Positions 27,372 to 32,145 of a stretch of DNA of 32,323 bases are shown here, one piece after another. The notes beneath the pieces were generated by a model that saw only the letters and a list, made by a program, of their open reading frames with translations, was not told where the DNA came from and did not search any database. How positions within the stretch are numbered: the first letter of the stretch is position 1; every line of letters starts with the position of its first letter. The position numbers and the translations under genes were made by a program. Location: NCBI GenBank assembly GCA_025360485.1, contig JANYCB010000090.1, positions 1 to 32,323 on the forward strand. The letters run 5' to 3'. The stretch is from Methylotenera sp. (lineage in GTDB: Bacteria; Pseudomonadota; Gammaproteobacteria; Burkholderiales; Methylophilaceae).

Positions 27372-28196
27372 TTAATAATAATAGGTTTTAAGTTCATCTT
27401 CAGCGCGGTTAACCACCATTCCCAATACGTTAGATTTTGCTAGCAACCGCATGCTTTGGGTAAGTTCAGGCTCAGTGTGTAACCCGTCTCCTACAACTAA
27501 AAGTACACAATCAACTTGAGGTAGAAAAACCATTGCATCGTCAGCATTAAGAACAGGCGGCAAATCAAAAATCACAATCCGCGAATCATATCTTTCTCTT
27601 AATTCGATGACTAAATTTTGGATGATATTCGACGATAGTGTTTCTGAAGATTGTTTTACAGGTTTATTTGTAGGCAATATCGTCAGGCGGGGAATTCCAG
27701 GATTGACAATTATTTCAGGTATCTTCGCATTCCCAGTGAGAAAATCATTGATAGACTTTTCTTGCCTGAGTCCAAGATATCGAGCGACACTTGGCCTGCG
27801 CAAATCAAAATCAACCAGCATTGCGGTTTTTTGAGGTAGTTTGGCTATGCTAATAGCAAGGTTTATTGCAACGACAGATTTACCCGCAGTTGGCGTTGGA
27901 GAAACAATCGCAATCGTGTGCCAACCGTGTTCTTCCATTTTTTGCAACACTTGTGTACGAAGCGTATCAAAAATCCAACCCGTCGGATCATTACTATTTT
28001 GTGCAACAATACGCTTGTCCTCTAAATATTTTTTATCTAATTTAACTACTTTGGTAGTGCTGTAAACGATGGACTTAAGCTCGTCTTCAATTTGCGGAAG
28101 TTTATTGGTATGCTTATTCCGTATTATGGATAACTTTCGGCCCGAGCCCTTTTGCTGAACCTTGGCTTTATTTAAAGCATCTTTAATCTTTTCCAT
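27372..28196 (-). CDS. epsG: EPS tyrosine autokinase (BY-kinase / EpsG-like)
   Basis: Walker A VSPTPTAGKSVVAINLA, Walker A' TAMLVDFDLRRPS, VIFDLPPVLNADDA, terminal Tyr cluster KTYYY. Confidence 0.85.
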   Translation of the reverse strand: MEKIKDALNKAKVQQKGSGRKLSIIRNKHTNKLPQIEDELKSIVYSTTKVVKLDKKYLEDKRIVAQNSNDPTGWIFDTLRTQVLQKMEEHGWHTIAIVSPTPTAGKSVVAINLAISIAKLPQKTAMLVDFDLRRPSVARYLGLRQEKSINDFLTGNAKIPEIIVNPGIPRLTILPTNKPVKQSSETLSSNIIQNLVIELRERYDSRIVIFDLPPVLNADDAMVFLPQVDCVLLVVGDGLHTEPELTQSMRLLAKSNVLGMVVNRAEDELKTYYY

Positions 28197-28208: not shown

Positions 28209-29777
28209 TTAAAATCTTGCTAAAATCTTTGTTGTTAACGCACCAAGCGGCATCACTAATAAATGCACCAATAACAAAGAAAAAAACAAAACCGACAAAA
28301 TGCTAAAAAACGTATAACTCACAAGATGCTGCTTTCGTTTTAATTCTGCTGTATTTGTAATATATGGAATTGTGGCTATCGGCTGAAGCTTTATGATAGA
28401 AGCCAAAGCATCCACGCCTCTTACCCGTTTATCCATGGCATCCATTAAAACCACCAAGCCAATCGCACTGGCAATGGCCCCAAAAAAACCCGCAAACATA
28501 AGCAATATCCGATTCGGTTTGATAGGTCTTTCTGGATAAATGGGGGCTTCGATCAGAACAAAACGTTCCCCTTTGTTTTCCATCTGAATATTTTTTGCTA
28601 TTTTTGAATTGTCTTGCTTAACTTGTATCTCTGCATAAGCGGCTTTGGCGCTGTCATAATCACGTTGCAATGCATCAAGCTCGCCTTCAGTTTGAGAGCT
28701 CTGAATTACACGCCCTTCTGTTTGACTTAGTTTTGCACGGATACTTACTTCATCCATTTCCAATGCTTTGAGGCGTGCATTAGATGTATCAATTTGTGCT
28801 TGTAGCTTTGCCACCATAACAGACTGTGGTGTTACTGGCTTATCAGAACCAGATCCTGCAGCAGACATGCTATTTTTTTCAATGGCATCAATTTTACGCT
28901 GTAATGCTCTTACAGAAGGGTGATTGTCGCTATATATAGCTTTTTGATTAGCCAGATCCTGTTTAAGTTTTTCCAAATCTGTAGGGCCTGAATTTTGTCC
29001 CTGAGGAATATTCAAGCCAATTCCAGCCTTAGCACCTTCTAAACTCACATCTAATGATCGCAATTCCGCTTGGGTTGTACTGTATTCGCGTTGGTTTTCT
29101 CTCAAATCATTTTGCAAACGATCAAGACTAGTAACTTGCATCATTTTGTTTTCTGGAAGAGAGTTGGCGTGACCTTGTTTGTATTTTGCAACTTGCTTTT
29201 CTATTTTTTCTAAAATAATTCTACGTCTCTCAGCCTCTTTACTAAAAAAATCTGCTGTTTCAGTTGCTTTTTCTTTACTAGCCCTGTCATTTTCATCCAA
29301 AAATAATTTCACCAAATCATTGGTAATATCATATGTGTCTTTAGCTTTGTAGTTCGTAAAGACAATCTGAAATGCGAAAGTAGATTTACCTCCCCATTGG
29401 TCAGCATCAGCCTTTAGTGGAATCACCACAATGTGACTACGTGCAGCCATCACCAATTTTTCTCGAGGTAAATTAGGTTTTTTATCCAGGCCGTAAAGTT
29501 TGTATTTTTCAGCAATCTTGGTTAGATTTTCATTGCTAAGTACAATCTGCTTTAGCGCTGCAAAACGGTCAGCAGCATACTTTTCTATTGGCTGATCGGG
29601 TTGAACTTGTTGTGATTCGATGAGAATTGTACCCGATGATTGATAAACTGGAGACATCCATAATGCCAATACAATTGAGGCCAAAAACACCAAAAAGAAA
29701 AAAACAATAGCATATGGGAACCTACGCTTAATGATATTTACATAATCATTAAGCGACTTCTCGCTTTCTAAAGACAT
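28209..29777 (-). CDS. epsF: Chain-length determinant (Wzz/GumC, EpsF-like)
   Basis: 522 aa; N-terminal Wzz domain (YVNIIKRRFPYAIVFFFLVFLASIVLALWMSPVYQSSGTILIE), long coiled coil, and C-terminal PERPIKPNRILLMFAGFFGAIASAIGLV. Confidence 0.9.
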   Translation of the reverse strand: MSLESEKSLNDYVNIIKRRFPYAIVFFFLVFLASIVLALWMSPVYQSSGTILIESQQVQPDQPIEKYAADRFAALKQIVLSNENLTKIAEKYKLYGLDKKPNLPREKLVMAARSHIVVIPLKADADQWGGKSTFAFQIVFTNYKAKDTYDITNDLVKLFLDENDRASKEKATETADFFSKEAERRRIILEKIEKQVAKYKQGHANSLPENKMMQVTSLDRLQNDLRENQREYSTTQAELRSLDVSLEGAKAGIGLNIPQGQNSGPTDLEKLKQDLANQKAIYSDNHPSVRALQRKIDAIEKNSMSAAGSGSDKPVTPQSVMVAKLQAQIDTSNARLKALEMDEVSIRAKLSQTEGRVIQSSQTEGELDALQRDYDSAKAAYAEIQVKQDNSKIAKNIQMENKGERFVLIEAPIYPERPIKPNRILLMFAGFFGAIASAIGLVVLMDAMDKRVRGVDALASIIKLQPIATIPYITNTAELKRKQHLVSYTFFSILSVLFFSLLLVHLLVMPLGALTTKILARF

Positions 29778-29796: not shown

Positions 29797-30966
29797 TTAA
29801 AATTTCAAGGTGTCATAAACCAATGAGACGCCAACAGCCTCACTATTGCCTGATTTGCCTAGAGAATCTATTTTCCTGAACGTCGTTGATAAACGGGTTT
29901 TCCAATGGTTGGATAAACTACGTTCATAAAATGCACCAAGTTGTTGATAGTCTAAGCCATCCAATCCGATAGTCGCGTCTCTTATGTATTTATTAAAACT
30001 ATAGTCTGCACCAAACTGGTCTAGCTCAGATCTAGCATATGCCCACCCAAGTATAAGGCCGTCTGTCTTCTGAAACCCCCCATTTGGAGAGACTTTGATT
30101 TGTCTAACTAGCGCTGAACTATAACTCACACGCTGTAATGTATATTTGGCATTTATGCCGCCGTCCCAGGAAGTATAAGATTGCCGACCAGAAAGGTCAT
30201 AAATTTCCGCATTGGCGCCAAGAGTTAAATTTTCATTTACATTATAATCAGCGCCCCCCCCTAAACGCACCTTGTCTGTACTTTCAAAAGTATCATTTGG
30301 GTTTATCTGCGCGTAGCCTAATTGAACATAGGTATCAAGTTTTTCGCTATTTGTGTATATTAACTTTGATCCAATATCGCCAAACTTGTAGCTTGCAAGG
30401 CCGCCTGGGGTCGATATAGAAAAGCTTACATTATCATAAACTGCATTGGTGAGCGCAGACCATTTGGAGTTGATAGTTTGCTGCCAGTTGGCTGCCAGCT
30501 CCCTGGTTGTTTGCGTATTGTTGTTTTGGGTAAATTGGCCCGTAGTTGTTAATTGACTGTTGAGAGTCGTGCCCTGCGTAAAGTTAGCATTAATACCAAA
30601 TGACCCTGTTTCATAAGTATGATTCCAACCTGCATTAAGCGTTGGATCTTCACGGTTAATGAGCACTGTTTGGTTTGAAGGCCTTTCTATATCAAATGAA
30701 CCGTCCAAAAACCATTGATTGACTTCGCTTGTGACATCCACACGAAAATATGGGATAAGTGAAAATATCCAAGCTGGATTTTTCTGAATGCTTGAAACTG
30801 CGGGATTTGAATCGTATATCAGTCCCGTGGTCAGCATTGCCCTCTTGGTAACTTCAGCTGCATTTGCTTGAGGTAACAACAAAATACAAGTAAGCCCAGA
30901 TAATAGATGTAATACAGTCTTATTGTATCTTGGATGCCTAATTGGCAATTGTTTTTTAATTTTCAC
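29797..30966 (-). CDS. epsL: Outer-membrane beta-barrel EPS protein (EpsL-like)
   Basis: 389 aa, signal peptide (LLSGLTCILLLPQANA/AE), alternating beta-strand pattern, located between epsE- and epsF-like genes. GTG start. Confidence 0.75.
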   Translation of the reverse strand: MKIKKQLPIRHPRYNKTVLHLLSGLTCILLLPQANAAEVTKRAMLTTGLIYDSNPAVSSIQKNPAWIFSLIPYFRVDVTSEVNQWFLDGSFDIERPSNQTVLINREDPTLNAGWNHTYETGSFGINANFTQGTTLNSQLTTTGQFTQNNNTQTTRELAANWQQTINSKWSALTNAVYDNVSFSISTPGGLASYKFGDIGSKLIYTNSEKLDTYVQLGYAQINPNDTFESTDKVRLGGGADYNVNENLTLGANAEIYDLSGRQSYTSWDGGINAKYTLQRVSYSSALVRQIKVSPNGGFQKTDGLILGWAYARSELDQFGADYSFNKYIRDATIGLDGLDYQQLGAFYERSLSNHWKTRLSTTFRKIDSLGKSGNSEAVGVSLVYDTLKF

Positions 30967-30974
30967 TGTAAACC

Positions 30975-31017
30975 CCTGAATATAGAGACAATGCGTGCAT
31001 TATACCAAATATTCAGG
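30975..31017 (-). promoter_or_regulatory. Nested inverted repeat over the epsL ribosome-binding site, with extended -10 element in its loop
   Basis: Minus strand CCTGAATAT-TTGGTATAATGCACGCATTGTCTCT-ATATTCAGG followed by GGTTTACAGTG (epsL start); inner AATGC-AC-GCATT; TGGTATAAT in the loop. Confidence 0.55.
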
Positions 31018-31033
31018 CATTTTATAAACAAAA

Positions 31034-31597
31034 TTATGGTACTACGATGGTATCACCTGGATTCAATGTTATGTTACTTTCTAACCGCTCGCCGCGGAGA
31101 AGTTGATCGTAGTAAACTGGTATGGCTTTTTGCCCTTGAGGAGTGTTTCGTATCACCTTAATACCACCATGATCAGCGAATTTATCCAACCCGCCAGCCA
31201 CGCTTAGCGCATCAAGAACAGTCATTGGTCCCATCATCGTAACCTGCCCTGGCTTCAAAACCTTGCCGAGTACATGCGCAATATTACCTGTTATGTTAAC
31301 TATAACCACTGACACCTGTGGATCGGGAATAAAGGGTTTTAATTTCTCAGCGATTTTTTTCTCCGCCTCAGTAGAAGTCAGTCCTACCACCTCTACCCTG
31401 CCAGCGAGGGGATAGGTAATACTGCCATCTGGCAACACAAGACTTTGGTTTTGCAACTTGTCTTCACCCCAAACGGATACCTGAATCGAATCCCCTTGAC
31501 GAAGCCTGTAGCCTTGTGGGGCCTCGGCGTTAGCTATCGATATTGACATCAAAAATAATTGACCAATTATCAGCCATAAAAGTGTTTTAATTTTCAT
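31034..31597 (-). CDS. epsE: Polysaccharide export protein (Wza/EpsE-like, poly_export + SLBB)
   Basis: 187 aa with signal peptide; GYRLRQGDSIQVSVWGEDKLQNQSLVLPDGSITYPLAGRVEVVGLTSTEAEKKIAEKLKPFIPDPQVSVVIV, HVLGKVLKPGQVTMMGPMTVLDALSVAGGL, NPGDTIVVP. Confidence 0.93.
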   Translation of the reverse strand: MKIKTLLWLIIGQLFLMSISIANAEAPQGYRLRQGDSIQVSVWGEDKLQNQSLVLPDGSITYPLAGRVEVVGLTSTEAEKKIAEKLKPFIPDPQVSVVIVNITGNIAHVLGKVLKPGQVTMMGPMTVLDALSVAGGLDKFADHGGIKVIRNTPQGQKAIPVYYDQLLRGERLESNITLNPGDTIVVP

Positions 31598-31756: not shown

Positions 31757-32059
31757 TCAAACACCACTTCGGTTAGAAATCATCACAAATCCAAATAAAG
31801 CCATTATTAATAGCCATCCAGTGGACAAAATTGGCTCAACTTTATCTTTAACCTGCACTATCGTTGTTTTAGCTTCTTCATTACTATTGCTTACAATCGG
31901 TTTTAGAGTTTCCTTTTTGATTGCGCTATTTGTGGTGATGTTGGATGAGACTTTTGCAGATCCAGCGGGTTCGTTATCTGTTGCTAAAGCTGTTATTGTT
32001 ACCGTCGAAATCACACCCAAAAACACCAGCGTAACAATTTTTTTCAACATATTACCCAC
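31757..32059 (-). CDS. Small secreted protein with C-terminal TM tail (possible atypical sorting signal)
   Basis: 100 aa: signal peptide MGNMLKKIVTLVFLGVISTVTITALA, S/T/N/K-rich middle, then VEP-ILSTGWLLIMALFGFVMIS-NRSGV tail. Confidence 0.65.
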   Translation of the reverse strand: MGNMLKKIVTLVFLGVISTVTITALATDNEPAGSAKVSSNITTNSAIKKETLKPIVSNSNEEAKTTIVQVKDKVEPILSTGWLLIMALFGFVMISNRSGV

Positions 32060-32121: not shown

Positions 32122-32145
32122 GCAATAGCCCATAAGGGCTATTGC
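32122..32145. terminator. Strong 10-bp hairpin in the gap between the LuxR gene and the small tailed-protein gene (terminator or leader structure)
   Basis: GCAATAGCCC-ATAA-GGGCTATTGC, perfect 10-bp stem with tetraloop; weak T tract. Confidence 0.5.

Follow-up and report, generated by a model that had tools for sequence, protein, structure and literature searches.

A hairpin over the epsL ribosome-binding site, with a predicted promoter in its loop, in the epsE-epsL gap of a Methylotenera-like genome

The window, i.e. the whole stretch of 32,323 nucleotides that was analysed, comes from a 2.0-Mb Methylotenera-like (Methylophilaceae) genome assembly and carries an exopolysaccharide export cluster on the minus strand, in the order epsE, epsL, epsF, epsG. 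The epsE-like gene (31034..31597) encodes a polysaccharide export protein of 187 aa with Poly_export and SLBB domains (Pfam PF02563, E=1e-24), the best NCBIfam match of which, TIGR03027, reached 131 bits, under the cutoff of 180. The epsL-like gene (29797..30966, 389 aa) has a GTG start codon (30964-30966) and was named from its position after epsE together with a sub-threshold match to the beta-barrel family OMP_b-brl of Pfam (21.4 vs 28.7 bits). Its orthologue in one relative (L004) weakly matches the YaiO OMP domain, and judged from these matches the product is probably an outer-membrane beta-barrel protein. The epsF-like gene for a chain-length determinant (28209..29777; TIGR03007, E=1.8e-61) begins 19 bp after epsL and is probably co-transcribed with it, and the epsG-like tyrosine autokinase gene (27372..28196; TIGR03018, E=6.4e-46) probably lies in one transcription unit with both. 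The families matched by the EpsF- and EpsG-like proteins are those of the XrtA system; as each match falls below its family cutoff, and EpsL was named by position and a sub-threshold match, the eps gene names are provisional.

The stop codon of epsE and the GTG of epsL are separated by 67 bp (30967-31033). Read on the minus strand, the gap contains two perfectly complementary arms of 9 bp, the 5' (left) arm CCTGAATAT at 31009..31017 and the 3' (right) arm ATATTCAGG at 30975..30983, which enclose a loop of 25 nt. The right arm overlaps AGGGG (30973..30977), the Shine-Dalgarno sequence (SD) of epsL, situated 6 nt before the GTG. The gap length, the perfect arms and the overlap with the SD of a GTG-start epsL had been described in the first-pass annotation, and all were borne out by direct reading. 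Within the loop, 4 nt after the 5' arm, TATAAT (30999..31004, minus strand) is the predicted -10 of an internal promoter for epsL, and the predicted transcription start, deduced from the -10 position, is an A at 30992 (minus strand), 7 nt after TATAAT. The -35 candidate, TTTATA at 31023-31028, is weak and leaves an 18-bp spacer to TATAAT; together with it, the promoter scored 10/12 in a consensus scan. The consensus extended -10 reported earlier stands for the window alone, where TATAAT is preceded by TGG (31005..31007, minus strand; motif TGn); relatives have AGG or GGG at this place, i.e. AG or GG for TG. An inner AATGC/GCATT repeat, likewise pointed out before, is present in the window and turned out to be species-specific.

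By itself, the 9-bp repeat is only mildly unusual. When the gap was shuffled 5000 times with dinucleotides preserved, 45 of the resulting sequences had a perfect inverted repeat of 9 bp or more, the RNA fold of the gap has a z value of -2.5, and the 32-kb window holds seven perfect repeats of this kind (spacer 3-40), the epsE-epsL repeat having the longest spacer. The hairpin is regarded as significant because it is conserved across genomes, and not from the 9-bp repeat alone. The terminator scan found no terminator between the co-directional epsE and epsL, which are 67 bp apart, and the hairpin, unlisted by that scan, was rejected as an intrinsic terminator: its stem is AU-rich and is followed by GGTTTACA, with no U-tract. 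An Rfam covariance-model search gave no significant match at the gap. An intergenic mini-ORF, ATGCCTGAATATTTGGTATAA (MPEYLV), was discarded as it occurs in the window only, lacks an SD and has no counterpart in relatives. Action as an RNA thermometer was rejected as well, a melting sensor being unlikely because the arms are perfect and opening still costs about 11 kcal/mol at 37 C.

Homologues of epsE at E<1e-40 were present in 24 of 187 Methylophilaceae genomes. A common layout was read in the gaps of the window and of L072, L073, L074 and L015 (the same as L003, L004, L005 and L013, respectively): CCTGAATAT, 3-4 nt, TATAAT, 13-17 variable nt, CTATATTCAGGGG and the start codon, of which the last is cut off in L074 by the end of the contig. 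These five genomes represent two genera and share both arms letter for letter, and the left arm is preserved at 9/9 positions amid varying neighbouring positions. The loop in turn cannot be aligned among them, and EpsL of L003, L013 and L004 is 38-47% identical to that of the window. Hairpin and -10 are conserved together, and GGTATAAT does not vary among the seven closest gaps. Covariation of the arms, suggested in the first-pass annotation as a check, found no support within this close group, where no column covaries because the arms do not vary. The paired arms occurred at the epsE-epsL gap and nowhere else in 150 Methylophilaceae genomes searched, which marks them as a cis element confined to one site, rather than an operator shared between loci. 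Strong covariance-model matches were likewise confined to the epsE-epsL gap among the 187 Methylophilaceae genomes; weaker ones (L091-L093) were -10-like or AT-rich sites without an SD hairpin and were dismissed. A pattern search over 399 genomes of the order returned the window itself as the sole match.

The gap of L002, whose EpsE is 88% identical to the window's, has altered arms with imperfect re-pairing and keeps GGTATAAT, and that of L075 has lost the left arm and keeps TATAAT and the right arm. In L016 (78% EpsE identity) the gap is otherwise unalignable; TATAAT lies 42 nt before the start (-42), and an unrelated arm pair, UUGCCC/GGGGCAA, lies over the GGGG SD. L078 has a layout like that of L016 and is a weaker case. 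The weak re-pairing in L002 and the wholesale arm replacement in L016 and L078 make up the whole of the evidence for structural substitution. Apart from the arms that bury its SD, the L078 gap contains another near-perfect hairpin, TATAGCGTTG-TTC-CAACGCTATA, directly upstream of TATAAT. The L002 contig (JAMXAE010000048.1) is filed under a Nitrosomonas MAG, owing to either mis-binning or recent transfer. In L077, L079-L083 and L023 the epsE-epsL gaps are short (ca. 27-42 nt), lack TATAAT and have a less buried ribosome-binding site (RBS), which is what simple co-translation would lead one to expect. An internal promoter seems to be limited to some Methylophilaceae lineages.

Computed folding agreed with two further claims of the first-pass annotation, that read-through RNA buries the SD and that RNA started in the loop frees it, both for the window and for the orthologues with identical arms. 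In the window, opening the SD costs 10.8 kcal/mol in read-through RNA vs 3.4 kcal/mol with a start 7 nt after TATAAT (p=0.003; here and below, read-through burial is compared with that of shuffled upstream sequence). The corresponding costs are 11.3 vs 0.7 kcal/mol in L072 (p=0.007), 7.2 vs 0.6 in L073 (p=0.003) and 9.4 vs 3.2 in L015 (p=0.020). The contrast between the two RNAs persists for start sites placed at +5 to +9 and at 10-37 C, and replacement of the left arm abolishes it, lowering the opening cost to about 4 kcal/mol. In the computed long RNA the RBS is thus part of the 3' strand of a stable hairpin, and in the short one it is open, as is expected of RBS hiding of the T4 gene e type. 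Among mechanically called starts in the window, epsL ranks second of 30 for burial; others are similar, and several of these similarly buried starts are probably wrong calls.

Among the more divergent gaps, burial was computed for L016 (9.5 kcal/mol in read-through vs 2.8 with an internal start, p=0.037) and L078 (9.6 vs 3.5, p=0.040), and folding gave no SD burial in L076 and L017; by a hand Fisher estimate the four distant gaps combine to about p=0.07. L002 folds weakly (3.7 vs 3.1 kcal/mol), and in L075 the burial is no more than partial (6.0 kcal/mol, p=0.26). When orthologous gaps were compared, burial of the RBS was higher in the seven where an internal TATAAT precedes the start by 38-46 nt than in 14 others (Mann-Whitney p=0.0007), a comparison in which gaps count as independent despite shared ancestry, L017 and L078 are left out as their TATAAT is further off, and some start calls of the 14-gap group are doubtful.

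The reading which we favour, and consider somewhat more probable than its alternatives taken together, is that epsL has an internal promoter, with its -10 in the loop of a hairpin that sequesters the SD; mRNA reading through from epsE would be silent for epsL, and internally started mRNA would be translated. The model builds on sequence, conservation and computed folds, from which we infer promoter activity, start site, translational effect and any regulation. A sigma-70-type promoter of epsL would lie in the epsE-epsL gap, within the loop of the hairpin whose 3' arm holds the SD. An mRNA started upstream and running through epsE would carry both arms, fold and hide the SD, and epsL would be poorly translated; epsF-epsG on the same message would probably suffer polarity. 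An mRNA from the internal promoter, beginning ca. 7 nt after TATAAT, would lack the 5' arm and have a leader of ca. 26 nt with a more open SD, permitting translation. In the window and L073, 17-18 nt separate the epsE stop from the beginning of the 5' arm, and the distance is larger in L072 and L015; with the arm out of reach of terminating ribosomes, translational coupling should leave it closed. Chiefly, such an arrangement would insulate the expression of epsL from read-through and tie it to its own promoter. Insulation is the simplest function and is better supported than the regulated promoter-choice switch originally proposed, which would need an additional signal. A bolder version, which we rate as rather doubtful, is an isoform-selective translation lock: co-transcription would yield EpsE and not EpsL, EpsF or EpsG, only the internal promoter would give the outer-membrane barrel and chain-length proteins, promoter choice would set assembly of the export machine, and arm sequences would have been replaced among lineages with the design kept.

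The main rival is a DNA operator, in which a regulator bound to CCTGAATAT half-sites flanking the -10 and the start would repress or activate the epsL promoter, the RNA hairpin being a by-product; it is the main rival because a binding site would also show invariant arms, and no covariation is seen in the close group. The arms do flank the promoter, their sequence is invariant in five genomes beyond the strict need of pairing, and the spacing from left arm to -10 is nearly fixed (12-13 bp). The outer distance of the arms, however, takes values of 43, 45, 46 and 47 bp, a range of ca. 0.4 helical turn and not the fixed half-site spacing of an operator, and the 150 Methylophilaceae genomes hold no other copies of the paired sites such as a regulon would have. 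L016 and L078 moreover keep the SD-burying layout with unrelated arms, L075 does without the left arm, and the position of the right arm coincides exactly with the SD, all of which speaks against an operator and makes this explanation unlikely. A regulon operator was also rejected at the level of single sites: the one other exact CTATATTCAGGGG (right-arm match) in the genome sits in a coding gene on another contig.

It is less likely still that the promoter alone matters, with epsL having its own -10 and the arms being mainly passive, i.e. a constrained SD leader and a chance or decaying complement. Conservation of the right arm is expected on this account as it includes the SD, and GGTATAAT persists in L075 (there with the right arm), which has lost the hairpin, and in L002, which has a weak one. 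Such an account does not foresee the identity of the left arm, which lies outside the standard promoter hexamers, nor a burial that exceeds the one obtained with shuffled upstream sequence. An intercistronic hairpin between operon genes is a usual place for segmental stability elements, and a stable fold in this position could protect the epsE 3' end or set a cleavage site between epsE and epsLFG. We find an mRNA processing or stability element the least probable of the three, as it leaves the invariant -10 in the loop and the precise SD overlap unexplained; besides, the missing U-tract denies the hairpin a role as intrinsic terminator.

Hairpins which silence read-through messages are known from several systems. 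In IS10 and IS50, read-through mRNA folds back and hides the transposase start, the native transcript does not fold, and the arms derive from the transposon end; unlike these, the epsE-epsL element is non-mobile, with a single copy in each genome. In phage T4, leader hairpins precede gene e (lysozyme), soc and 49, those of gene e with embedded late promoters (PMC3014915). Long early transcripts of gene e fold and hide the RBS, which lowers lysozyme synthesis about 100-fold, and late promoters just upstream of the RBS give transcripts without the 5' strand that are well translated; in T4-related phages a late promoter is also found within the region encoding the 5' strand (PMC3014915). The epsL gap resembles gene e in the computed RBS-hiding hairpin of the long RNA, and its predicted promoter, if transcription starts where expected, would likewise omit the 5' strand. 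It differs in that gene e belongs to a phage with a timed sigma switch, whereas epsL lies in a chromosomal operon and has an ordinary sigma-70-like -10 and no known timing signal. For I-TevI, I-TevII, I-TevIII, segB and Aeh1 mobE, the RBS-sequestering hairpin forms on upstream-initiated transcripts only, and the downstream promoter, a late one for I-TevI, segB and mobE, is so placed that its transcript leaves out the 5' arm (PMC2988022). These are mobile homing endonucleases insulated from transcription of host genes, and epsL in contrast is a structural export gene. Listeria lmo0514 is a chromosomal gene with two promoters and a long 5'-UTR, and its long isoform has a predicted occluded SD (PMC4214639). 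There, opening of the long form is attributed, as a proposal, to the sRNA Rli27, and occlusion is predicted for the short form too, whereas the short form of epsL is computed to be open.

The kind of mechanism is accordingly already known, its logic being shared by T4 gene e, I-TevI, segB and mobE. In the literature searched, no paper dealt with the epsE-epsL gap, and a conserved single-site element of this kind in a chromosomal polysaccharide operon seems to be unreported. What is a well-known trick of phage T4 has its parts conserved here at a chromosomal operon; if the favoured model is true, cells too use T4-type silencing of read-through messages, inside an ordinary operon. Adjacent co-directional genes without a terminator between them then need not be co-expressed, which would call for caution in reading co-expression from operon RNA-seq coverage. 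A simple genome screen suggests itself, i.e. for a -10 in the loop of an SD-burying hairpin within an intergenic gap.

Minor features were observed upstream of epsE. A protein of 100 aa with a C-terminal anchor is encoded just upstream of the gene (31760-32059, minus strand) and weakly matches EppA, the EPS-associated small membrane protein (19.7 bits, cutoff 90). In the gap upstream of this small EppA-like gene, a perfect 10-bp hairpin, GCAATAGCCC-TTAT-GGGCTATTGC, lies at 32122-32145; as only the plus strand has the T-rich tail, the hairpin is no terminator for the flanking minus-strand genes. Ca. 50-60 nt before the epsE start, a TGATATKCT motif aligns in L002, L003 and L015, and could represent an extended -10 from which epsE is transcribed. 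The L015 copy of the motif overlaps the palindrome CACGTTTACGTG.
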